A stretch of DNA of 64,000 nucleotides. Origin: Bryopsis sp. KO-2023. Taxonomy: Eukaryota > Chlorophyta > Ulvophyceae > Bryopsidales > Bryopsidaceae. Below are positions 7,725-63,904 of the stretch, one piece after another (positions within the stretch are counted from its first letter, which is position 1; every line of letters begins with the position of its first letter). The stretch covers positions 2,604,001-2,668,000 of the forward strand of contig BSYQ01000012.1 of the NCBI GenBank assembly GCA_030272585.1, given 5' to 3'. The position numbers and the translations under genes are program-made. The notes under the pieces are model-generated. The model was not told the origin of the DNA and searched no databases. It was given only the letters and a program-made list of their open reading frames with translations.

Positions 7725-10353
7725 ATGGTTCCGAGCGACAGCAAGTTCAAGGTTGCATGGGGGTTTCCAGAAGGCAGGTATTCGATACATAAAGGGTGTT
7801 CTACAGATGTAATGATACGGTCGCCTCCCCAATGCCGCTTTGCAAGGCTTGATTGTTGTGTTTTTTTTCGTAAAAAAAAAACACTGTTTTCAGCGCAGCG
7901 ACAGAATAAGCATGCTTCACACACATCAAAGCATGAGGGAGTTGAAACCTCCAACCACCGGAGAGCTCCACCGCCACGTTTGCGAGCTGGCGGAGGACGA
8001 GCACGCACAAGTGCTGGCGTTCAGCAGAAACCTTGATATTGTTATGGCTTCCCCAGTCGAATGCGCTCAGTTCAAAGGTAGAGTTCCAGTAAGTTGCATC
8101 TGGACGTGCGTTACACTGCTTTTCCGAGATCTTCGACGATTTCTATTTGGGGGGTGATTCAGATTTTCTGCAGTGCGAGTTTAGTATATCCGAGGGACCT
8201 GCGATTCGCTCGCAAAAGTACACGAATCTAGAGACGGTCGAAAAAATTTCTTTGGCGCTGCGTTTCAGGCCGTTGACAGCGTTCTCTTTTCCCCCTAGAT
8301 TCCCGTCAGACTGAGCAACAAAGATATGACGCAGCTTCGGTCCCGCCGGTCTAACCGGTCGCGCCGGTCTAACTCGACCCCCCCTCCCATCCCCCCGTGC
8401 TTGATTCAGACGCATGACCGACATAGAATTCTGAAAATCTAGCCCCAACGGCATATATATATATATGTACCCCTCCAGGAGGATGCACGAATTTCCATCA
8501 GTAATGCCAAGTGAACTGGACGATTCTTTAGAAAAAACATCTAGTTCAGTTGTGCGGTACACTGACAGTTTGCTGTGGTTTATGGAAAATGCAGGGAGTG
8601 TGTGGGGACCATGCGTCAGCGACATGACCCTTGTGGTGAAAGATGAAAACGATCAACCGGTTCAAATGTCCATCATCCGGCATCCGTATTACTTCGACGC
8701 GACATGGAGTGTCCCCATGGAGAAAATTCCCCTGGTGGTGGGAAACCAAAAACAATCCTTGCACAAAACGCCATTGCAGTCGGTTGATCTTGGCACATTC
8801 CTGGACAACATCTCGGTATACACGGATCTCAACGTAAGTACACCCCCCCCTCCAAAAAATGTATTCAACATGCACCAGATGTGTGTTTTTTCGTTGGGCC
8901 ATTTCTTCAAGGAGGGTTACTCTTGGTTAAGGTGCTGACTTTTTTTTTCTCCTTTCTCCTTTTTGCATACTGAAAGGAACACTTTTTTTGTGTATGTATC
9001 TGTTTTTTTTTGTCAAATTGCAGTGTTCTTCTTTGAAAGCACCTGGAGATTCAGATGCTGTCGTCAGTGCCCAGACTTGTGTTCTGCCGGTACAAGAAGG
9101 AAGGAAAGTCAATTTCCATGTGGAACTGTACAATTATCATCAGGATCCACCGGTGTTAGTCATTGTTACAACATCCAAGGGCACCAGTGTTCAGGTAGGT
9201 CTGGCGCTAATGCATCAGGAAAATTAAAAGACAAATTACGTATATTTGATTGATCATGCTGATGGGGTGGGGAATAGGCGCAATCAGTTGCTGTTTAAAT
9301 CTACGTCCATGGGGTTACATAACTTTCGAAGAATTCGTAAGTGTTCATGGATTCCAAAAAATTCCAAAAATGTAAGAAAATGTATGGTTAAACTGTATTT
9401 ACTCAAAGAAAAAGTGAAAAAGAAAAAAAAAGGAACCTCAGGTTTGATTGGATGAAAAAGAGAGGGGACATATGTTTTTCTCGGAACTTTTCAATCTTCT
9501 CGCTTTGCATTCTTTGTTAAATTCAGATTTGAACAAGAAAAAGTGAATGAAAAACCAAGGGAGCAATGGAACTGAAAGTACCACTGATATGCCTGTATGC
9601 TTTTGTCAGGTCTTGGACAAGCAAAACACTGCTGGAGGATTTCATGTGGGTGCCCACGGGCAGAAACTTCGGTTCAACAATGCTGGACAAAGATGTACGT
9701 TCGCATCAATGGGAGTGAAGGATGACCGTGCCGAAACAGGGGTGCCATTGACAGGGACCATGGAAGCTTCTGAGAAAGGAAGCGATGTGATTGTGGTTGT
9801 CCAGGTGCCTTTAATACGAAAACAACGAGCTGGGAGCTTGTTCTTCCCTGGCGGTGCTGCCTCCTTCCTGGGGGCTCTTAATAACATACCTAACCTAGGT
9901 TTTGGTGGAGGTGGTTTCGGTGGAGGTGGTTTTGGTGGCAGGAGAGTGTTTGGATCATCCCCACCAACACCTGTGGAGGGGCTGGGTCAGACCCAGTGTC
10001 CGTTCCCGGCCCTGAAAGACTACCTCATTGCACGGGATGACATGTACCCTGTAAGAGTTACAATCCAGTGGTGCAAGGGCACAGTCAATGGGGAGGTGGA
10101 TGCAGAGGTCATAGATTCAATTGCCAATCAAATGGAGGAGGCGGAATCGAGATCTGATTGGTGGGAGTCCCTCATGGCTGGAAAATTTCAGAGCCAACAC
10201 CAAACGGCATTGCGATATCCCGTGGAGAGTTTTTACAGCAACCCTGATGGGCACTGTGATAAATGTGGGATCAGGTACAGGAGGTTGGCGTGCCCTGATT
10301 TCAATTTTTGTGAGGTTTGCGAAGTTGTGAATCTCCGTGGCCATCACTGTTAA
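7725..10353 (+). CDS. ZZ-finger protein of unrecognised family, copy 1
   Basis: Exons 7725-7777, 7899-8077, 8595-8833, 9024-9194 and 9610-10353 keep phase and give about 461 residues. I do not recognise the family. The N-terminal 70 residues are unlike anything I know. Next come about 230 residues that look like a beta-rich globular domain (VWGPCVSDMTLVV; VNFHVELYNYHQDPPVLVI). A Gly-rich linker follows (FGGGGFGGGGFGG), then a segment with YPVRVTIQWCKG and a C-terminal ZZ-like zinc finger (HCDKCG...CPDFNFCEVC...GHHC). Compared with copy 2 the finger lacks four residues (RLIF) just after the first Cys pair. The start is chosen because its first 17 codons encode the same peptide in copy 2. Exon structure is identical to copy 2, so the pair arose by duplication. 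Confidence 0.75.
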
Positions 10354-15839: not shown

Positions 15840-18331
15840 ATGGTTCCAAGCGACAGCAAGTTCAAGGTTGCATGGGGGTTTCCGGAAGGCAGGTATTCGA
15901 TACATAAAGGGTGTTCTACAGATGTAATGATATTCCAGTGTGTGTGCGCGCGCTATGTGTTTTTAAGGTTGTTCCACAAGGCTCGGTCGTTGTGTTTTCG
16001 AAACAATAACAAAGTTTGAGAGAGTCCGTGGCGAGCCAAGGCAGCGACATACGGAACATGTTTCACACGTATAAAAGCAGAAGCACGAGGGAGTTGAGAT
16101 CTCCAACCACTGAAGAGTTCCACCGCCACGTTTGCGAGCTGAAGAGCCAGCACACGATGATGCTGGCGTTAAGCAGAAACCTTGATATTTCCATGGCTTC
16201 CCCGGTCCAGTTGTGCAACTTTAAAGGTTCGTGTTGGTGCGTTCAGTCGTTTTTGCACCTGGACGTGCGCTACACTGCTTGTCCGAGATCTTCGACAATT
16301 GTTTTTGGGGCATACTTTTATTTCTTTTGTAGTGCGGGTATTGTATTTCCTCCTGACGGAGCTGTGTTTTGCTTCCGAAAGCACGTAAATCTGACGACGG
16401 CGGAAAAAAACAAACAATCTTGCCCATGCGTTTCAGGCCAGCAGCAGTGTACTCTGTTCCAATGAATTTCAGTCAGACTGAATCACGGAAATCTTAGGCA
16501 GCTTCCGTCGCGCCAGTCTGACGCACTCCTTCCCCCCATCCCCCTCGACCGACTTCATTATGCAAATCAAAATAATCATATGATTCTTTTGTTCATAATG
16601 CATTTGGGTTTTTGAGAGTAAACCATGCAGCCGACCAAACGCATCGGAAATGCCAAATCAACTATATGCTCTTTTTGGAAAACATTAAAATCAGTTGGGC
16701 TGATACACTGAGAGTGTGCGGTGGTTTATGGAAATATAGGGTGCGAGTGGGGACCATGCACCAGCGACATGACCCTGGTGGTGGAGGATGAAAACAATCA
16801 ACCCCATCAAATGCCCATCATCCGGCATGAACATTTCTTTGAATTTGCATGGAGGGTCCCCATGGAGAAAATTCCCCTGGTGGTGGGCAACGAAAAACCA
16901 TCCTTGCACAAAACGCAATTGCAGTCGGTTGATCTTGGCACATTCCTGGACAACATCTCGGTCTACACGGATCTCAGGGTAAGTACATCCCCCCCTCCAA
17001 AAAAACTCATTCGAAATGACGCATGTTGCATCATACATCTGTACAGATGCATTTTATTGCTGGGTCATAAACAACAGCCCAACATGTTTTGCAAGAAGGC
17101 TTTGTTAAGATGCGTTTCTTGTCTTTTTCATTTTTAAGTTTTGTACACTCACTTGGGGTGTGTGTGTGTATTGTGTATTTTTTTTTCCTATTTCAAATCG
17201 CAGTGTTCCTCTTTGAAAGAAGCCATGTTTTCGGATGCTGTTGTCACTTCCCAGACTTGTGTTCTGCCAATACAACGAGGTGGAAAAGTCAATTTCCATG
17301 TGGAACTCTTCAATTATCATCAGGATCCACCGGTGTTAGTCATTCTGGGAACTTCCAAAGGCACCAGTGTTCAGGTAGTCAATGCATAGGAAAATTAGGG
17401 AATTCAAAATGTTTAAATCGGGCTCACGAGCGGTTTGTTGTTTAAATGTTTTTCTGACTCAAGTGTTCAATATATAGGTTTTCATTTTTTGTGAACTTCA
17501 TTTTTTTCAAAATTCAAATTTTTCAATAAACATGTGCAAAAAAGCAATGGAACTGAAAGTGCTCGCGTGCCCTTTTGTCAGGTCTTGGATAGGCAAAACG
17601 CTGTTGATGGTTTCCGCATAGATGCCAATCGCCACCGCCATGGACAGAAACTTTGGTTCAACAACGCTGGGCAGAAATGTACCTTCACGGGGACCATGGA
17701 AGCTTCTGAGAAAGAAAGCGATGTGATTGTGGTTGTCCAGGTGCCTTTAATACGAAAACAACGAGCCGGGGACAGCCCTATCGATATGATTGCACATGTG
17801 CAGACTCTTGTTGAAAAACGTGTGGATGAATGGAAGCGAGGTTCTGGTAGACATGGGGTTGGTGGTGGGAGTGGGGTTGGGGTTGGGTCAGCCCCACCAA
17901 CACCTGTGGAGGGGCTGGGTCAGACCCAGGGTTCGTTCCCGGCCCTGAAAGACTACAACATTGCACGGGATGACCTCTACCCTGTAAGAGTTACAATCCA
18001 GTGGTGCAAGAGCGCAGCCAATGGGGAGGTGGATGCAGAAGTCATAGATTCAATTGCCCAGAAAATGAAGGAGGCGAAGTCAAGAGCTGATTGGTGGCGG
18101 TCCCTCGTGGTTGGAAACTTTCAGAAGCAACGCCCGACACCATGGAGACACTCCTTGTGTATTGACTTAAAGCCTGATGGATACTGCGATAAATGTGGAA
18201 GACTTATATTTGGGATCAAGCACAGAAGATTGGAGTGCCCCAACATCGATTTATGTCAGCCCTGCGGACCGATGATGCTCCATGGCCATATGGCGCCATA
18301 TGGCCACCATACGATGCATCATATGTTATAA
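15840..18331 (+). CDS. ZZ-finger protein of unrecognised family, copy 2
   Basis: Exons 15840-15892, 16045-16226, 16740-16978, 17204-17374 and 17582-18331 keep phase and give about 464 residues, collinear with copy 1. The first 17 residues are identical to copy 1. The beta-rich middle (SDMTLVV, NFHVELFNYHQDPPVLVI) is highly similar. The linker differs: copy 1 has FGGGG units while this copy has a helical stretch (VQTLVEKRVDEWKRG) followed by GVGGGSGVGVGS. The ZZ finger is complete (YCDKCGRLIFGIKHRRLECP, then IDLCQPC). It ends in a His/Met-rich tail (HGHMAPYGHHTMHHML) absent from copy 1. The function is unknown; ZZ fingers usually bind peptides or protein termini. An 18-nt perfect palindrome lies within the tail codons (18286-18303). 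Confidence 0.75.
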
Positions 18332-39098: not shown

Positions 39099-39104
39099 CA
39101 TACC

Positions 39105-39480
39105 TGGGATCCGATCCCGATTAAATCGGTTTCCGATCACCCGGGCGACCGATCATGATCGATGATCGGTCGCCGATCCCGATCCCGACCACCGATCATT
39201 GCCGATCACCGATCATTGCCGATCAACCGATCATGCCGATCATCGAATGACCGTCGATGACCGTCGATGGCCGTCAAAATCGGTCCGATTTAATCGGGAT
39301 CGGTTGATCGGCCGATCAAAAATGATCGACCAGATCGGAGTCGGGTTCCGACCACGATCGGATCGGTGATCGGGATCGGCACGCGCCGATCATGATCGGC
39401 GCGTGCCGATGAAGTCGGTGACGACAATGTGCAGTCGGGTGGTGTCGACGGTGATCGAAAACTCACCGACTGTGATCGGA
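39105..39480. repeat. Left subterminal GATCGG array
   Basis: Dozens of overlapping GATCGG/CCGATC words in both orientations. hAT transposases usually bind short repeated subterminal motifs, so these are likely transposase binding sites (inference). Confidence 0.75.
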
Positions 39481-39587
39481 TGCATCGGCTACATTCACTG
39501 TCAGCACTGATCTGAGCAAGTCGGGCCAGCATTGAAATTCGACTTCGCAGGGTTTTACCTTGTCTTGTGCTATTTCCTTGCGCGACA

Positions 39588-42232
39588 ATGTCTGGAAAGG
39601 GCAAGCAGAAAGCGACGCGAAAAGCGAAGAAAAGGAACAGTTTTGTCTTCGAGGCACCTCTTATTCCCCGTGTACGAGTTCGAGCTTCCGGATCTGGGAG
39701 TGGGACAGGTGGGATGCTGTCGTGGTTGCTGTTCCGAGGGTGTAGTGAGCCGTAATCACCTGGGCTGCAAAGTGACAGTGTTGTTCCGACCGACCTGGTG
39801 CCTCGGTGAGGTCACCTGGGCTGCAAAGTATTGATGTTGTTGTTGTTGTTGCTGTAGTCATTCATTGATTGATTGTTGATGTTGTTGTTGCAGTGCCCTC
39901 TCAAGTCTCAGATCAGGTCCCCACTGAGGAATCAGATCAGTGCACCCAGAAGCAAAGCAACACATGGGTGGACAAACTGTTTGTATCTGATGGTAATGGA
40001 AAAATGATGGAGTTTGTTGATGAAAGGGGCAGGAATGTGGTGTCTTGCAGAGTCTGTTCCATGAATCTGGTGTACCTGAAGGGTGGACGCACCCCACTGC
40101 TGACCCACGCCAAAAAACATGGAATCACATCTGGTAGGAACATGGAGGAGAATATTGTAAAAGAATCGGAGATGCTGACCCAGAGCCAGGACCAGGATGT
40201 AGAACAAAGCCGGAATGAGAACCAGAACAGAGTAGTCTCTTTTGGAGGTCAACGCACATTGCCGTTCGTTGCCAAGTGGGGCCCCACCCACAGGGAATAT
40301 AAGCAGTTCAGGCATCAGGTCATGTGCTATATTGTCAGTTCTGGTGCCCCGTTCAGAGCCGTGGAGGACAAATATTTCAGGAAGATGTGCTCGGGGTTGA
40401 ATGCCTCCGCACCACCCCTTTCCGCAAAGGGAATATCCAACATGGTAGGTGCTGCAGCAGAGCAACTGACGAAGACATTGCAGGATCTTGATCTGAGCAG
40501 ATTCAGACCATGTTTTGTTGCCGATGGATGGTCACAACAGCCAAGGCACTACTTTGCTATGGGGGCTAGCTACATCCACCGTGACCCTGATCAGAACCTG
40601 TTTCGTCTGGAACGGGTCAGTCTCGGAACTTGGGAGCTGGAAGGAACTGCAACCGCCCAGGTGATTTCGGAACAAATGAGTCTGATCAGGAAGGAGTATA
40701 ATCTGGACGGTTACAGAGCCAGCATTGTTACAGATCATGAAGCTCGTATGGGTGCTGCCTGCGAAGGGAACGGGGACTATGACTGGCATGGTTGCTGCAC
40801 CCATAGAATAAATATCGGTGTCCAGAAAACTCTGAAAGCAGCTCCGAAAGAGCTGTTTGATCTGATCAAGAGGGTGCACGACATATGTCGAACTGTAATG
40901 GGATCATCAACATGGTGGGAGCACCTGAAGGCAATCCAGGTGGCCAGAACAGAACAGGAGAATGCTGAAAAGGAACGCAAGGAACGTGCACGGTTGGCGG
41001 CACTCGTGGATGCTGATCTGGGGGGCACTTCGACCGCTGTCTCTGGGGTTCAACGAAGTGTGGTCTGTGAGAATGTGGATCAGGATCTGGTGCAGGATTT
41101 GGAGGGGGGGCTCAGTGACGACCAGGGTCTGTTTGATGAGGAGTTCGAGGAGGACGATTGCGATGACAACGAGGAGGAATTACCGGGCAGCATTGAGAGG
41201 GTCTATTCAAGTGACGAAGACAACTGTGGTGTCGAACCTGAAGTTGTTGAAGAGCTAGAAGACTGTCCAGGACCTGTTCGGAGATCCGACAAGGTTCTCA
41301 GACTGACCTTGCCGGTGGAGACAAGGTGGAACAGCACCTGGTACATGCTGCATCGGTTTCTGATTTTGAAACCTGATCTGATTGAACTAATGAAGAGAAT
41401 GACGAGCATCGTTCCTCTTTCGTCCTCGGAGTGGCAGCGGCTCCTGGAACTGTACTTCGTTCTGCAGCCATACAAGGAGGCAACAAAATTGGTGGAGGCG
41501 GAAAATTCGGTGACCTGTTCTGCAGTTCTGATGGTAATGGCGCGGATCAGTGACAGCATTGACCAGATGCCGATCAGGGATAATGAGGTGAAGACCTTCA
41601 GAGATCAGATCAAGTGGGAAATGGATATACAGTTCGATGACCCTGGGTGGCTCCTGGCCGTCGGATGCATGCAATTTCTGGATCCGACCCGACTCAGTCT
41701 GGATGATGTGGTGATAATTCGGTACCTGTGGGGCAAGGTGGGGCATTTCGAGAATCTGCGTGAGAAGTACTGTCGGGTTGACATGTGGGTGGAAGATGTG
41801 CACAAGGAGTGCAGGTCACTGATGAACTCGATCAGGAACAGAAACCGCGGGGATTTGAGATCTGATGAGGGTGTCCGACCAAAAAAAAAGAGGTCAGTGG
41901 CATCTAAGAGGGACTGGCTGACGGTGGTACCTCCGAGTGCAGCCTCAGGTGTTTCCATTCAGGGTGAATGGAACCGGTATCTAGCGGTTAGGAGGATGAT
42001 ACATGGGAACACCACAGTTCTGGATTGGTGGAAAACAAATCAGAACCAGTATCCGCTGTTATCTGTTCTGGCCGCCGAATATTTATGCGTACCTGCTTCC
42101 AGTGCCTCGGTTGAGAGGATGTTTAGTGTGACTGGTCATCACCTGAACAAACGGCGCAGATCAATGGAGCCAACCAGGGTGCGGGATCTGACCCTGATCC
42201 GAGATAATCTGCATCTGCTGAAACCCACCTGA
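39588..42232 (+). CDS. hAT transposase with N-terminal BED-type zinc finger
   Basis: Catalyses cut-and-paste transposition. Two exons, 39588-39708 and 39894-42232, joined in phase (leftover G plus TG gives Val); about 819 residues. The first exon encodes a basic N-terminus (KGKQKATRKAKKR), a possible nuclear signal. A BED-like finger follows, CRVCSMNL...LLTHAKKH (C-x2-C-x16-H-x3-H). The RNase H-like core shows conserved blocks FVADGWSQ and IVTDHEAR (catalytic Asp candidates), GCCTHRINIGVQ, LPVETRWNSTWYML, and PYKEATKLVE with the likely Glu. An acidic insert lies in the middle of the core, as in other hAT proteins. The C-terminal dimerisation region is intact (LDWWKTNQNQYPLLSVLAAE; PASSASVERMFSVTG). 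No stops or frameshifts, so it may be active or recently active. Confidence 0.93.
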
Positions 42233-42585
42233 TAAGATCAGATCAGATCAGGCTGATTTGGTAGGCTTTGGGCTTCTGTTCTGTTTTCGATGGGATTTTC
42301 TTTCTTCTGGGTGTTTTTTTGTTTGATGGCCCTTTACTGATGGGCTCTTTTTGCTGCTATTGATTGATTGATTGGCTGATACTGATATGAGATGATTTGC
42401 ATGTGCTGAAAGTTTCAGGGTTTCAGCCTGAAACCCACCTGATGAGATCTTTGTTTGGGAACATTACATTGTAAAAACTTCTTTTTTTGGCCCACCATGA
42501 CCATGACAGAGAACACCATATTCCCAATCAAACCAGATTACAAGAAAATACCTCCCAAACAATACCCAACCCTCAGTCCAAAACC

Positions 42586-42955
42586 CAAAACAGATAAACA
42601 GGAGAAAAGGGAACACAGTCTGATCAGTTCCTCATCAACAAATGCAAAACCCAAAACAGATAAACAGGAGAAAAGGGAACACAGTCTGATCAATTCCTCA
42701 TCAACAAATGCAAAACCCAAAACAGATAAACACGAGAAAAGGGAACACAGTCTGATCAATTCCTCATCAACAAATGCAAAACCCAAAACAGATAAACAGG
42801 AAAAAAGGGAACACAGTCTGATCAGTTCCTCATCAACAAATGCAAAACCCAAAACAGATAAACAGGAGAAAAGGGAACACAGTCTGATCAATTCCTCATC
42901 AACAAATGCAAAACCCAAAACAGATAAACAGGAAAAAAGAGAAAACAGTCTGATC
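42586..42955. repeat. 66-bp minisatellite, about 5.5 copies
   Basis: Near-identical 66-bp units starting CAAAACCCAAAACAGATAAA. Being a multiple of three, the array is open in frame on both strands (KPKTDKQEKREHSL on +). It lies between the convergent transposase and second gene; I regard it as 3' non-coding sequence rather than a gene. Confidence 0.9.
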
Positions 42956-43056
42956 AATTGCTCACGAACCACAATCCCATAATCCAACCCATATCTTCCA
43001 CAATAACCTCCATACTCCTGATCTGAGGTCACTCACAGCATGTGAGTCAGATCTGT

Positions 43057-44899
43057 CTACCACTCGGGCTGCAGCTCCTCCTCTTCCTCCTGCAAATGCC
43101 CACTTGCATCGGTTCTGACCCAGTAGATTCTGCTCCGATCTTCTGGCCACTGAGCAAACGGTACCTGAGCTGATCTGGTCAGACGCACTATGTTCCTCTC
43201 ATGGATTCTGATCTGTCTTAAAAACAGGGCTTCCTTCAGTCTATGAAGAAAGTAGGCATTTTCCAGCAGCACATTCTGTGTCAGTTGGATCAAGTGGCCC
43301 ATGGAGAAGATCCTGATCGGGAACCGAACAGTATAATCGGGATAATATGAGTATGAGGTCTGCAGATCTGCAAGTTCCCGATCGAGGGCTTCACTTTCTT
43401 CACGGGTTCTGTACACATGGGTCCTGATCAGCTCACGGTGCCTTCGAACCGGGTAGTTCTGTGCATCGACTGCGCATGCCAAGCCATCAAAGTCCCTGAT
43501 CGGATCATTGTTACTGATCGGTAAATTGTTCCTGATCGGTTCATTGTTCCTCCCACCAAACGCCCACACAGGTGCTCGTCCCCCTGGCATTCCAGGTGGT
43601 GGTCCTCTTCCCCGCCCAAAGCGAACAGGTGGTGGTCCCCCTGGCATTCCAGGTGGTGGTCCTCTTCCCCGCCCAAAGCGAACAGGTGGTGGTCCCCCTG
43701 GCATTCCAGGTGGTGGTCCTCTTCCCCGCCCAAAGTGAACAGGTGCTCGTCCCCCTGGCATTCCAGGTGGTGGTCCTCTTCCCCGCACAGTTCGAACGAA
43801 TACTGCTTCTGCCTCGCTTTCAGGTTCTGATTGTGGATCACTTTCAGGTTCTGGTTGTGAATCACTTTCAGGTCCGAGGCCATACCCATACACATCCTCC
43901 TCCTCCTCCCCCTCTTCCTCCTCTTCCTCTTCCTCCACTTCCTCTTCCTCCACTTCATCCCAGGGATTGTTCTCGATATTCTGATCTGGTCCAGATCCAC
44001 CTGCTACCGGGTTCGGCTGATCAGGGACGTGTCTTCCAAGGAACATCTGGTCATGTTGGAACTTGATCATGCAATTCAGCTCATCTTCCTTTTCCTTCAT
44101 CTCCCTCAGTTCGGTTCTGAGCCTTTCCAGCACTCCCAACAGGTTCCGATCCCTGAGCACCTCTGCATTGAAAAAATAAGTAGTTAAATACCAGGTTTCA
44201 AAAAACAAGTGGAAAAACAAAAAAAAAGGCAACAGCATGTCAACTCACGAGTCTGGACGTAGTATGGCTGCTTCATATCAGGTCCCAGCCAGGTGAAGCC
44301 TCTAGTGTTGTCCAATCCCGGAGGAAACGAGGTCAGGTCTGTCATGATCAGGTTCATATACCGAGCTGGGCTCTGGTGCCTGAGGGCTCTGGCTTCATAC
44401 CGTTTGTCCCGGTGTTAGTATTTTAGCGCTATACGAGGTAGTTTGGGATAGAGCCGAGGGTGGCTGACGCATGTGGGTTCACGAGTAAGACAGATTAGAC
44501 CCAGAGTTTGGGGCATGCGTCAGCGTACTACACTTAAGGGTACTTGTTGTCTAAAGCAACAAACCCCACAAGTATACTTGCGTTAGCCAGCAAGTTATCA
44601 CGAATCCAACCAACACAGCCGACCACTATTGCGTCACCCACAAGCTTCACTATCACCCGGTCCAGGTGCGATGCGGCATCCACGAACAACAGCTGCACCA
44701 ACAAAAAATAAAAATAAACCCTAGAACATAATAAAAAAAAACGCGCAGCGCAGCACAAGGGGGAACTTGCCCTCTCGAGCCCGAACAGATCAGTGAGCGT
44801 GCACAGAATTTTGTACACGTATTCCTGATCAGCTGGAGCCATCTCGCGCCCCTGTAGCCCCAGGTCGGGTCGTTTCCGAATCGCCTCCACGATGTTCAT
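43057..44899 (-). CDS. Second protein of the hAT element, unknown function
   Basis: Four exons in phase: 44899-44771, 44692-44544, 44388-44249, 44162-43057; about 507 residues. The first intron has a GC donor (AGG/GCAAGT) and the second holds a perfect TACTAAC branch site near 44418-44424. The N-terminal 140 residues look globular and helical (EYVYKILCTLTDLFGLER; LLFVDAASHLDRVIVKLVGD). A short coiled coil follows (LERLRTELREMKEKEDEL), then a long Glu run, then Gly/Pro-rich repeats RGRGPPPGMPGG (four copies of a 57-bp unit), then a helical C-terminus (RHRELIRTHVYRTREESEAL; YFLHRLKEALFLRQIRIHER). I do not recognise the family. It lies entirely inside the transposon, convergent to the transposase, so an accessory role in transposition or its control is inferred, not shown. 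Confidence 0.75.
43575..43795. repeat. 57-bp coding repeat in the transposon's second gene
   Basis: Four near-identical units encoding a GRGPPPGMPGG(P/R)(P/A)PV motif, RGG/proline-rich in character. Confidence 0.85.
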
Positions 44900-45074
44900 C
44901 CCGGTTCTGCCTGCCCCTGCGGTGTTCTGCCTGGTTCAGGGTTGTTTCTTAATCGTCGTCAGCGCCAAGGGAGGGTTACAGAATAAACGTTGTGTGTCGA
45001 GAAGGGGAAGCGAGTACCTTAAGCACTCGCTTCCAACGCACGTCACGTACGACACTGATGTGAGTCGTCAGCGT

Positions 45075-45435
45075 GGGCTACATCGCCGATGTAACATCGG
45101 CGTCGAATTCGCCAAAACCGATCTCAATCGGTCTGATCTCACCTGTGCCGATCAACCGATCATGAAAGGTCGGGCCCGACTACTGAACCGATCACGGGGG
45201 ACCACCGATCTTTGATCGGCCCGATTGAGTCGGTCACGATCGGGCGGCTCGATCGGATCGGCATCATGATCGATGACCGATCATCGATCATGGTCGGCTT
45301 GACCGAATTGCCGATCATGATCGATGATCGGTCATCGATCATGATGCCGATCTCGATCAAGTCGGCCGATCCGATTAATCGGACCGATCTTGACCGATTT
45401 TCAAAAAATCGGTCAAAAACCGATCATGGTCAGTT
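45075..45435. repeat. Right subterminal GATCGG array (outer element)
   Basis: Dense GATCGG/CCGATC words, with repeated CGATGATCGGTCATCGATCA-like units, upstream of the nested insertion. Mirrors the left array at 39105-39480. Confidence 0.75.
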
Positions 45436-45506
45436 TCATGCCCTTAAGGTAACTGTCAGGTCAGATCAGGTGTTTGACCTCATCTGCATACTGTTCTGGG
45501 TGGTCG

Positions 45507-45514
45507 ATCATTAC
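45507..45514. repeat. Target-site duplication (left) of the nested element
   Basis: ATCATTAC, repeated exactly at 46646-46653 immediately after the right terminus. Confidence 0.88.
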
Positions 45515-46645
45515 CATACTATGGATCCGATCACGATCAGATCGGTCCCCGATCAACCGGGAGACCGATCATGATCGTGATCGGCCGATCACCGATCTGA
45601 TCGGTCGCCGATCAGGTCTGGCAGGGCCGATCATCGATCACGATCGGCCGATCACCGATCTGATCGGTCGCCCAACCTGATCGGCAGTTTTTGATCGGCC
45701 TGATCGTGATCGGCCGATCAAAAACTGCCGATCAGGTGCCGACAGGGTGCGACGCTTGATCGAGATCGTGATCGGGATCGGAGCTGCCGATCAGATCGGT
45801 ATCATGATCAATTGATTCCGATCATGATCGGTCCCATGATCAATTGATCGGTCAATTGATCGGTCCATCACAAATGCCCACAAGTCACCACCCGAAGGTG
45901 TTTCTGGAGGTGTAAGGATTCGAACCTAGGACCTCACTGGTTGGAATCAAGCAAATCAACGCTTGGACCACCCTGAACCACGATCACTAGGTCCTCCGTG
46001 TTATTATATACCTCAGTTTGTCGGACTGACTGATCAGGTATATAATGACACGGAGCACACTCTCACCGCAGCTCAGAGTGGTCTAAGCGTCGATTTGCTT
46101 GATTCCAGTCAGTGAGGTCCTAGGTTCGAATCCTTACACCTCCAGAAACACCTTCGGGTGGTGACTTGTGGGCATTTTCGTAAGACCGATCAATTGACCG
46201 ATCAATTGATTATGGGACCGATCATGATCGGAATCTTAAATTAAATTCCGATCAATTGATCCATGGCCGATCATGGTCGGAGCTGATCGGATCAACGGCC
46301 GATCAATCGGCGTTTCACCGATCTTGATCGACCGATCACGTGCCGACAGGTCGCGACGCTTGATCGTGATCGTGGTCGTGATCGGAGCTGCCGATCAGAT
46401 CGATAATCGGAAGCCCGATCCCGATCACGATCAGGCTTTGATCGGCCGATCACGATCATCGATCAGGTTTTAATCGACCGATCACGATCACGATCATCGA
46501 TCATGATCGGTAAAAAAAAAAAAAAAAAAAACCGATCATTTTTAGAATCATGTGGAACGAGATCGTGTCAAGTCAGATCAGTGAAACGACCTGTCCTGAC
46601 ATCGAAAATGGACGGCCGATCATTTCCGATCACGTCCATAGTATG
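45515..46645. mobile_element. Nested non-autonomous hAT-like foldback element
   Basis: Perfect 11-bp terminal inverted repeats (CATACTATGGA at 45515-45525 and TCCATAGTATG at 46635-46645) flanked by a perfect 8-bp target duplication ATCATTAC (45507-45514 and 46646-46653). The first 60 bp align closely with the left end of the outer hAT element, so it is probably mobilised by the same transposase. It has no coding capacity. The interior is GATCGG-rich and built around a long inverted repeat. Confidence 0.88.
45819..46232. repeat. Long inverted repeat with tRNA-like sequence in each arm
   Basis: Arms of about 195 bp (roughly 45819-46012 and 46036-46232) with a short loop near 46013-46035. Each arm holds GGTTCGAATCCTTACACC, close to a tRNA T-arm/B box, and a TGGTCTAAGCG-like A box about 50 bp away (+ orientation at 46078-46135). 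The tRNA fold is degenerate, so this looks tRNA-derived rather than a functional tRNA. Confidence 0.75.
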
Positions 46646-46674
46646 ATCATTACCTATCACCATCCCTGGTATGA

Positions 46675-60132: not shown

Positions 60133-60996
60133 TCACAGCCCTGAAAAGTTCTGGCATGCATGGAACTTTTTTTTTTTTTTTTGGAATAATGTTAGATCAT
60201 TATTTAGGGAGCAATAGATTAGCTACTTGGGAGAAAACTGTCATTTCGCAGTAGTTGCTTAGGTCAAGTTTGTACAAGAGTGTGCTTGAAGTCAGACAGG
60301 TGCCGGCTCGGCCAGTAAAGTACGTATCCCCCAGCTGGGATATGAAGCTGGAATTTTTCTTAAAGAGATTTTCTTTAAAAGAGCCGAAGTGAGAGAAGTG
60401 ACAAGTTGGGATTGATCTCTTTTGTCCCCATTGTTTTCATCCCAAATTTTGACTGTAAAGTATCAACGATGGTTGCCATAACAAGAACAAGATGCATACG
60501 ATCCACTATGTCTCTTTGACCCTTCTTTTTTTCTTTCCCCTTTTCACAGCTGGTAATAACGATCCCAATCTAGACAAGATGCATTTCATTTCATACGATG
60601 GTGGCAAGACTACACGTCAGAATTCTTGGGGTGATGTTCTGTGTGAGAAGTGGCACGAGTGCGACGGTTTCAGTTTCGTTTTGCGGGGGAGCCTTGCCTT
60701 GTTCGATTCATCTCGCGCAATAAGAAAGGTAAATCACCCGCGAGCTGAGAAATCTACCTACGCTTGCGCTCCGACAACACCGGCCTTTCCCCCCGCTGTA
60801 CAGGAGCAAGCCAGTCTCACAGTCAGACTGGGAGGTGACACTGGAGCGAGTTGGGGCCGCTGGAGGCGACGAATTTGGGCGATCTTTGAAAAGCAAAAAC
60901 GTTGTCCCGAAAAAGTGGTGCTGGGTATCTCGATTCGAACCCCCCATCGTCGGCTCAATGCTTGTGACGTTCTGAAGACGTCATCATAACGTGAAG
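60133..60996 (+). other. Intergenic with an uncertain coding segment (60550-60989)
   Basis: After an acceptor-like TTTTCACAG ending at 60549 the + strand is open (NNDPNLDKMHFISYDGGKTT; WHECDGFSFVLRGSLALFD) up to a donor AAG/GTAAAT near 60728, and open again after CCGCTGTACAG. The two parts cannot be joined with certainty and no start codon fits, so this is an incomplete or decayed gene. The rest shows no features. Confidence 0.35.
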
Positions 60997-62040
60997 ATGA
61001 GCAATTATGTGAATGCCATATGGGACTTGCCTGGAGATATCGTGGGGCAGATCCTTAATCAATTGCGCCCAAAATCAATCGTTACCTGCATGTTGGTGTC
61101 GAAAACATGGAGGGATGTGGTGAAAAGACAACCAGGGCTGCAGGGAAAAATCAAGCTGGAGGCGGCATGGAGATGTCGTAATCTAGACCCAATTGTTCAT
61201 TACCCCGCTGAAAGTTTTTACACCTGGAGCTGTGCGAGAAGCAACAACAGAGTTGCGTTGGCAGGTCCGGATGGCGTTCTAGTGCTGGATTTGAGAAATG
61301 GGGATATTCTGTTCGATTTGAGAGGTTGGGCAGGGGCGACTAGGTCCCTTTGCTTTCTGGATGAACTTCTTGCATCAGGGGGGTGCAGCGGCGAGCTGAG
61401 GGGTTGGGAGGTTTCCAGTGGAGATCAGGTTTTTTGTGTTGGTGCATTCTCTTGCTATGTTTCCTCCATTGCTGACCTTGGAGATTATGTCGCTTTGGGC
61501 GGTTGGGACGGTCGGCTTGAGACTTGGAAGAAGGAGAGTTGGAGTCGATTTGGAAATCTGAAAGGTCACACCGACTACATAGACTGCCTATCCTCTGCAA
61601 AAGAAGGGGCTTTGTTGGTGAGTGGGTCGGGGGATAGCACCATTCGAGTTTGGGATGTTTTGGAAAGCGCATGTGTGAATGTCCTCAGCGGCAATTCCCA
61701 TGGAGCCAGTTGCTTGGAGGTTTTCGACGGGTTTATCGTGTGTGGATTATGGGATGGGTTGATTTTCTTGTGGCGATTGGAAAGTGGAGCTCTTTGGGGT
61801 GTTTTCGAGGGTCATGTTAACGGAATTGCAGCGATTAGCTTCGATGGAGTTCGGATTGTGAGTGGTTCGCATGATGGGGTTATTAAGGTATGGGATCTGA
61901 TGGAACAGGGGTGTATTCGAACTTTTGTGACGGGGGATTGTTGTGAAAGGAATGGTATTTGGGTTGATGGGGATGAACTGGTGGTGGTGGCCCAAAGTGG
62001 AAGAATGCTGGTGTGGAATTTCTTACGAGACCTCGAGTGA
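60997..62040 (+). CDS. F-box / WD40-repeat protein
   Basis: Single-exon gene, 347 residues from the ATG at 60997; the upstream GTG at 60991 is in frame but not needed. The F-box is at residues 8-45 (WDLPGDIVGQILNQLRPKSI; LVSKTWRDVV), the Skp1-binding module of SCF ubiquitin ligases. It is followed by about six WD40 blades, clearest in GHTDYIDCLSS...VSGSGDSTIRVWDV and GHVNGIAAISFDGVRIVSGS...VIKVWDL. Probably a substrate adaptor for ubiquitination. Lack of introns contrasts with its neighbours. Confidence 0.92.
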   Translation: MSNYVNAIWDLPGDIVGQILNQLRPKSIVTCMLVSKTWRDVVKRQPGLQGKIKLEAAWRCRNLDPIVHYPAESFYTWSCARSNNRVALAGPDGVLVLDLRNGDILFDLRGWAGATRSLCFLDELLASGGCSGELRGWEVSSGDQVFCVGAFSCYVSSIADLGDYVALGGWDGRLETWKKESWSRFGNLKGHTDYIDCLSSAKEGALLVSGSGDSTIRVWDVLESACVNVLSGNSHGASCLEVFDGFIVCGLWDGLIFLWRLESGALWGVFEGHVNGIAAISFDGVRIVSGSHDGVIKVWDLMEQGCIRTFVTGDCCERNGIWVDGDELVVVAQSGRMLVWNFLRDLE

Positions 62041-62636: not shown

Positions 62637-63904
62637 CTAGCAAAAAAGGTTGCGAATTTCATCGGGATTGCTTTTGCACAGGTCAATATTGCACAGATGT
62701 TCATTGAACATCAAGCTGAAGCACCCACACGCCGCATCTTTGGGACGTAGACCATCCGCATCGGCAAGCGTTTCGTTTGCTCCTCTGCTGAGCAGTGCTT
62801 CGATGTTCTTCTCATTGCCGAAAAAGGACGCAAACCATAGAGGCGTGGCTGGGTCTTCTGCATCGACATCAGCGCCAGCATCAATCAGCGTCAAAAGAAC
62901 CGCAGCATTCTCTTTCGCAAGCGCACTGATCTGAAGCACTGTGAGGCCACGATTATTTGTTGCTCCGATGTCCGCCCCTCTCGCGATCAATTCCTTCACA
63001 ACAGCCAAATGTGCATTCTCTGACGCAATAATAAGCGGAGTCACAGCTGGGGAGAAGCGAGAATTGAGGCGAGTCTCGATGTCTGCTCCTTCGTCGAGCA
63101 AGAACTTCACAGCATTCAAGTGGCCTTCCTGTGCTGCCAAGTACAGAGCAGCCGCCCCACTCCTGCTCTTCTCCTCAATGTCCGCTCCTTGATCCAGCAA
63201 CCCTCGCAAAGCATCAACGTTTCCATAATATGATGCTTCGTGGATTTCGTTGAAACCGGGATTGTTGCCGAGGAGGGGACTTAGGATAGCGAGAAACTTA
63301 GCGTCTCTGCGTTTGCGGTTACTTGATTCAATCTCTACGCCACTTCCGACTTCGGGACTGTTCCTCGCGTTTCGGGTTTCTTCCATTTCTATAGTCAGAC
63401 ACGTGACTTTTCTTGGTACCGCGACCTCGCCCTCAGTGGGATCGTTCTCCTGTCCAACACAGTCACAATTGTTTTATTCAAAAATCAAGGATCGTTTCGC
63501 GTCTGGAAGAGATGTTGGGATGTGGACGGAGTGGAAAATAGCACTCACCGCGACAAGCTTATCTCTATCTTGCAGCAGTCTCCTGACAGCGCGGTGCGAG
63601 CCAAACGAGCGGCCGCTCGTGTGGCTACTCGTCATACCCTGCAAGGAAATGCTGGATGTTAGGCGGTGCACTCAAAACCTTAGCGACTTGTTGGCTGGAC
63701 TCTCGAATCGTATCGATCCAACCTCCGATACCTTAGACTCCAACGCAGCCTCCGGAGCCCCTGAAACAAGAGTAAGTATCAGCTTAGCGAGCGCTAGCAG
63801 TCGGAGCTTTTGCGAGATGTATTATAATTTGTATTCTTACATCCTGTCGCCAAGAATGCGGGATTCGACGCCGCAAAACAAAGAAGCAAAAACAGGACGA
63901 CCAT
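62637..63904 (-). CDS. Ankyrin-repeat protein with N-terminal signal peptide
   Basis: Exons 63904-63841, 63760-63732, 63638-63549, 63449-62637, in phase, about 331 residues. The first exon encodes a short hydrophobic leader (MVVLFLLLCFAASNPAFLAT), suggesting entry to the secretory pathway. The last exon holds five or more ankyrin repeats, for example EIHEASYYGNVDALRGLLDQ, ALYLAAQEGHLNAVKFLLDE, PLIIASENAHLAVVKELIAR, LWFASFFGNEKNIEALLSRG. The repeats are complete (GADI linkers). If the leader exon is not used, translation could begin at the internal ATG 63386, giving a cytosolic 249-residue ankyrin protein. Ankyrin repeats bind partner proteins; no specific role can be read. Confidence 0.82.

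Follow-up and report, generated by a model that had tools for sequence, protein, structure and literature searches.

Gene 2 of a hAT transposon from the green alga Bryopsis sp. KO-2023 is probably an accessory protein that is inherited together with the transposase and acts with it in an old clade of two-gene hAT elements; a probability of about 0.55 is given to this interpretation, which is drawn from sequence comparison. The copy described here lies in the window, the whole stretch of 64,000 nucleotides that was analyzed (GenBank assembly GCA_030272585.1, contig BSYQ01000012.1, positions 2,604,001 to 2,668,000); it carries the transposase gene on the plus strand and gene 2, convergent to it, on the minus strand. 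The genome in which relatives were searched comprises 91 Mb in 28 contigs, and the window sits in the one designated C12. The relatives were grouped in families A (the window element) to E; complete copies were read for families B and E only, while D is known by search matches and C by pieces. The searches support a two-gene hAT element that recurs across the clade, and in families B and E the two genes move as a unit.

Association of gene 2 with the transposase

The C-terminal exon of gene 2, used as query, is found in at least 105 places of the genome and the window transposase in at least 58; these and the other counts of places are lower bounds, since the genome search scores only the best candidates. 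Gene 2 lies within 8 kb of 54 of the 58 transposase matches, and all 54 pairs are convergent. An independent set was formed by the best 150 of 185 matches to the hAT dimerization domain (PF05699), which were divided by profile extent into 94 matches inside the clade and 56 outside it. A convergent gene 2 is present within 12 kb of 92 of the 94 clade matches and within 1.6 kb of 86 (also 86 at 2.5 kb). When only clade matches with a frame of at least 700 residues are considered, 58 out of 60 have a convergent gene 2 within 2.5 kb, the gap being 599-1383 bp with a median of 799; random placement gave a mean of 0.2 and at most 2 in 200 trials. Near the 56 hAT matches outside the clade, gene 2 is never found within 1.6 kb and is found twice within 2.5 kb; it is convergent in one of these two cases, and that match adjoins a clade transposase match. 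The two exceptions in the clade are located at C2:8796956, where the nearest gene-2 place is 32 kb away, and at C9:4136274, which has a frame of 784 residues and its nearest gene-2 place, not convergent, at 40 kb.

Transposase and gene 2 are mobilized together in families B and E. Two complete two-gene copies of family B, one of which spans 6,127 bp, have the same ends and are flanked by different perfect 8-bp duplications (GTCACAGC and GTGCAAGG), and a complete two-gene copy of family E, 5,900 bp long, is flanked by the perfect 8-bp duplication ACAGCTAG. The terminal inverted repeats are CATACCWGGGAT in A, CATACTATGG in B and CATACTAGGGAT in E, and have the length of 8 bp or more that is expected for hAT elements. 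The 8-bp duplication typical of this superfamily is found at the two B copies, the E copy, one derivative of family A and a derivative nested in the window element, and it is imperfect at the window copy itself. Near-identical open copies suggest recent activity of both families: in family E transposases and gene-2 exons are 100% identical, and family B has near-identical aligned copies as well as identical gene-2 cores.

The two genes also show a similar pattern of divergence. Identity between transposases is 0.65 for B and C, 0.57 for A and B, 0.56 for A and C and 0.54-0.55 for E with the others; for the conserved core of gene 2 (its last 157 residues, with 35 columns invariant across 11 sequences) the corresponding values are 0.58-0.63, 0.44-0.46, 0.44 and 0.33-0.38. 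The order of divergence is the same in both proteins, with E lowest in both, suggesting that the two genes descended jointly rather than being captured repeatedly; this order is taken from identities and not from a tree, and from A to E the transposase values change little. The ratio of non-synonymous to synonymous substitution rates (dN/dS) of the core was computed for 13 pairs, five within family B, two within family C and six between families; the other loci of family B, for the most part with identical core proteins, are outside this set. The core is constrained in family B, since the five pairs, which all share locus L010, gave values of 0.35, 0.18, 0.07, 0.18 and 0.10 (Fisher p from 0.00014 to 0.01).

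The window element and its genes

The features of the window copy are given below; exon limits of both genes were set by inspection of splice sites.

39099..46673, whole hAT element of family A, with ends CATACCTGGGAT and ATCCCTGGTATG
39099..39598, left subterminal array of CCGATC/GATCGG motifs, 23 in the first 500 bp
39588..42232, plus strand, hAT transposase gene, 819 residues as spliced (exon 1 39588-39708, GT-AG intron 39709-39893, exon 2 39894-42232)
42579..42964, 66-bp tandem repeat in 5.8 copies between the 3' ends of the two genes
43057..44899, minus strand, gene 2, convergent to the transposase gene
44771-44899, minus strand, gene 2 exon 1, with the ATG at 44899
44693-44770, minus strand, gene 2 intron 1 (GC-AG)
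44249-44692, minus strand, gene 2 exon 2, interrupted
44163-44248, minus strand, gene 2 last intron
43057-44162, minus strand, gene 2 exon 3, with the stop ending at 43057
43060..43530, minus strand, conserved C-terminal core of gene 2, 157 residues, of no known family
43568..43786, minus strand, repeats of 57 bp in the variable middle of gene 2, encoding GRGRGPPPGMPGG-type repeats
44413..44655, insertion resembling a solo long terminal repeat (LTR), TG...CA, in gene 2 exon 2, 243 bp, with a CCCGG duplication on both sides
45515..46645, nested non-autonomous hAT derivative of family B, 1,131 bp, with the duplication ATCATTAC on both sides

The left end CATACCTGGGAT starts at 39099 and its inverted copy ATCCCTGGTATG ends at 46673. 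A sequence of 941 bp in another contig (L004, C2:6539380-6540320) has the same ends and is bordered by the perfect 8-bp duplication CAAGTGAG; therefore, these are the true ends of the family. The duplication of the window copy is imperfect, with GTCACACC on the left and A followed by CTCACACC on the right. The genome contains 23 occurrences of the end pattern CATACCWGGGAT and 9 of a reversed control pattern. Three more facing pairs of it are found at C12:1054117-1057800, C12:1719632-1721577 and C2:6539380-6540320, with spacings of about 3.7, 1.9 and 0.94 kb, respectively; they are perhaps non-autonomous relatives of element A, the 0.94-kb pair alone having been read. CCGATC/GATCGG motifs are as dense in the first 500 bp of E as in A (23 in both), and the last 400 bp of E contain 17, while the background in the window flanks is 0.12 per 500 bp; these arrays are a possible binding platform for the transposase. 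Tandem repeats near or between the gene 3' ends also occur in family B (L027 2253-2659), with different units, of 50 and 99 bp instead of 66 bp.

The transposase is matched by the Pfam family Dimer_Tnp_hAT with an E-value of 6.3e-19, and a profile built from nine relatives matches the Hermes transposase in PDB (1.2e-16). D211, D281 and E741, which by comparison with hAT motifs may be the catalytic D, D and E positions, are invariant across nine aligned transposases; the structure model, with a mean predicted local distance difference test (pLDDT) score of 47, is too poor for checking the catalytic residues. Among the best 58 of 305 candidate matches to the window transposase, the other 57 are only 56-59% identical to it, so no close second copy is seen. 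Relatives outside this genome were not found in a viral contig collection, a result that says little about other algae.

In gene 2, exon 1 ends with FGLER just ahead of the intron in A and E, and FGLE is found at a like place in B. At all five loci examined the middle of the protein contains 1 to 9 copies of GRG-PPP or GRG-PQP motifs, and in family A it also has a Glu run. Pfam scans of the gene-2 exons matched no TET/JBP, kelch, PHD or Myb/SANT domain, and the core has no relatives in viral or prokaryotic contig collections, which again says little about other algae. Gene 2 appears to represent an undescribed protein family, co-inherited in one hAT clade.

The window copy of this gene is most likely disrupted, because the solo-LTR-like insertion lies in exon 2 and a family-B copy is open and uninterrupted at the matching place. 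Any gene-2 model from 44899 to 43057 must therefore splice out the insertion or read through it. Sequence 95-99% identical to the insertion is found in the flank of locus L056 and in locus L038, where two parts of it lie about 180 bp further apart. By its TG/CA ends and the CCCGG duplication the insertion is probably a solo LTR. The donor of intron 1 is GC in the window copy (44770), while GT is found at the same position in family E.

The derivative nested near the right end is 94% identical to the family-B end over most of its left end and 88-92% identical at its right end. It holds a 200-nucleotide inverted repeat (45814-46013 and 46036-46235, 89% complementary), the arms of which carry a tRNA-like GGTTCGAATCC box; a tRNA was suspected here, and ARAGORN, run with the bacterial code, finds none.

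The original prediction for this locus, made from the sequence without database searches, agrees with these results in part. It had recognized the hAT ends, although the right limit is 46673 and not 46674, and an intact transposase between them, which is indeed a spliced gene without visible lesion and with Pfam and Hermes matches. The second gene on the minus strand inside the termini is also confirmed, from the ATG at 44899 to a stop whose last base is 43057, and so are its Glu run and GRG-PPP repeats. Conversely, its description as spliced and open throughout, for about 507 residues and given without exon limits, is not confirmed in view of the insertion at 44413-44655 in exon 2, and the nested derivative at 45515-46645 had been missed.

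Elsewhere in the window, the open reading frames (ORFs) 9547-10350 and 17495-18328 look alike and have C-terminal ZZ-type zinc fingers, the first one below the Pfam cut-off; near the right edge are an F-box/WD40 ORF (60976-62037) and an ankyrin-repeat ORF (62640-63473). In the genome as a whole, the chlorophyll a/b-binding family is matched 107 times, in many cases by a single exon, and the RuBisCO small subunit 10 times. This indicates a phototrophic host, probably of the green lineage, in which a nuclear small-subunit gene is typical. A rust fungus had been considered as host and was rejected; Zn_clus and KDZ are not matched, a result that does not demonstrate their absence, and chitin synthase has a single weak match.

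Comparison with described transposons

Hermes/Ac-type hAT elements share with the clade the homology to Hermes, the dimerization domain and the 8-bp duplications, and they are not known to encode any protein besides the transposase. In maize MuDR, mudrA and mudrB converge. MuDR resembles the present element in having two genes, for a transposase and a novel protein, between inverted ends; it is different for the Mutator transposase, the duplications of 9-10 bp (PMC6446971) and the 200-bp promoter-bearing ends (PMC8224964), since here the transposase is of the hAT type, the duplications are of 8 bp and the ends are short. Neither a Mutator-like element (MULE) transposase nor 9-10 bp duplications are found in the present clade. 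Moreover, mudrB is said to be confined to Zea (PMC3276141), whereas gene 2 occurs in several diverged families of one genome. According to two sources integration requires mudrB (PMC8224964, PMC6446971), while another gives its function as unknown (PMC3276141). Second genes are also familiar in MULEs (PMC6446971).

The described pairs of RAG-like transposons are invariably tail to tail, and the accessory protein is less conserved than the transposase (PMC7204232). However, these elements have a RAG1L transposase, 5-bp duplications and a RAG2L protein with kelch and mostly PHD domains (PMC7204232), while gene 2 is without Pfam match; with a tail-to-tail accessory gene, but neither RAG1L nor 5-bp duplications, the likeness is one of layout only. 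Most autonomous candidates of PIF/Harbinger and other PHIS transposons have a second ORF, to which no known function is ascribed (PMC4482050); their transposase is a different one, and the second ORF is usually of the Myb/SANT or YqaJ type (PMC4482050), neither of which is matched by gene 2.

Among hAT elements a parallel is offered by Puccinia hAT7, which contains a transposase and a second gene, TET/JBP, inside the element (PMC12730594). In hAT7 the duplications are of 7 bp, the dioxygenase has been passed between transposon kinds, and TET/JBP lies upstream in the same orientation in the three families with order given (PMC12730594). The clade described here differs in its 8-bp duplications, convergent genes, lack of a TET/JBP match and divergence of gene 2 in the same order as the transposase. 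Gulliver of Chlamydomonas and hAT-1 of Volvox are classed as autonomous in a survey of plant and algal hAT elements, the consulted passages of which mention no second gene (PMC6027215). Apart from the TET/JBP paper, no hAT element with a comparable gene is named in the titles and abstract openings of open-licence literature among the matches listed. Second genes in transposons, including one hAT, are already known; what appears to be new is a hAT clade with an undescribed, co-inherited accessory gene.

Possible roles of gene 2

Autonomous members of the clade carry gene 2 tail to tail with the transposase between their ends; if it is an accessory protein, its product would be made, enter the nucleus and act together with the transposase. 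The conserved terminal parts may assemble with the transposase or with gene 2 itself, while the low-complexity GRG-PPP middle could contact nucleic acid or chromatin; a binding role on DNA or RNA, already put forward in the original prediction, stays conjectural. The protein would help to pair the GATCGG-rich ends or help insertion, as reported for mudrB of Mu elements, and the window copy, its gene 2 being interrupted, would need gene 2 in trans from other copies. More tentatively, the clade could be a hAT lineage with a dedicated partner, unrelated to any described family and needed for transposition or for survival in the host, in which the tail-to-tail design was reached independently of RAG-like elements and MuDR.

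Several observations weigh against an accessory role. Gene 2 gave no useful match to Pfam, NCBIfam or PDB sequences, and the predicted fold of its core (mean pLDDT 45, predicted template modeling score 0.24) is too poor for a fold search. Another hAT group, with a 350-residue open frame, has also spread in this genome; its 31 matches have equal or near-equal scores, and 30 of them are more than 12 kb from any gene 2; therefore, hAT transposition as such needs no gene 2. One family-C pair, with 2 synonymous against 6 non-synonymous changes, has a dN/dS of 0.80, the other, with 0 against 4, gives no estimate, and all six between-family pairs have saturated synonymous sites. Finally, of the merged gene-2 places, at least 107, a hAT-domain match within 12 kb could be assigned to 91; of the other 16, three do have a transposase there, which leaves 13 places with no transposase match in that range. 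Eleven of them are matches shorter than 450 bp and two are of 1,146 bp (C2:4332254 and C9:4176833); they are possibly remnants of further families. Transposase-less stretches include C2:2564292-2564489 and C2:2999560-2999757.

The original prediction had considered selection on gene 2 plausible, proposing dN/dS below 1 as a check, and this holds for the five family-B pairs (0.07-0.35) and not for the two family-C pairs. It had also indicated, as findings that would speak against it, copies lacking the second gene and the occurrence of the gene outside the element as a host gene. A search for both showed that 92 of the 94 clade matches keep a convergent gene 2 within 12 kb and two do not, and that a host gene may be present among the 13 transposase-less places.

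An explanation that fits nearly as well, even if it is considered rather unlikely, is that gene 2 encodes a counter-defence (anti-silencing) protein directed against host methylation or small RNAs and acting outside the transposition reaction, like VANC of Arabidopsis MULEs and perhaps TET/JBP of Puccinia hAT7. Indeed, an anti-silencing second gene is known in a MULE (PMC6446971) and TET/JBP genes are carried by hAT7 (PMC12730594); moreover, identity between A and the other families is 0.33-0.46 in the core and 0.54-0.57 in the transposase, and an arms race could account for gene 2 diverging faster. However, RAG2L is also less conserved than RAG1L (PMC7204232), so this feature does not discriminate, and neither TET/JBP nor any other enzyme domain was found in gene 2 by Pfam, NCBIfam and PDB sequence scans. 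Capture of host genes by DNA transposons is documented as well (PMC6446971, PMC2528002), and the 13 of 107 places without a transposase match would agree with a host gene carried passively, as in Pack-MULE-type capture. This possibility is disfavoured and seems improbable, since the same gene is found on the same side and in the same orientation across families with transposases only 54-65% identical, the end of exon 1 is alike in A, B and E, the core is constrained in family B, and 11 of the 13 places, although unread, are matches below 450 bp. Lastly, gene 2 could be a negative regulator of the transposase that limits copy number. Element-coded regulators exist in other superfamilies, and two convergent, closely spaced genes could also be subject to antisense control; yet a self-limiting gene should be easily lost in proliferating copies, while 58 of the 60 long-frame clade copies keep gene 2 within 2.5 kb, and this role is accordingly regarded as very improbable.

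The co-inherited accessory protein thus remains the favored interpretation, with consequences for annotation and for transposon biology. Copies of gene 2, present in at least 107 places, could be mistaken for host genes. Whether gene 2 is needed can be tested directly, given the abundance of near-identical family-B and family-E copies and the small derivatives that share their ends. hAT transposition is generally taught as a one-protein reaction; if gene 2 works as a partner of the transposase, this clade would provide a natural two-protein form of it and, beside RAG1/RAG2 and MURA/MURB, an independent case of transposases gaining accessory subunits.

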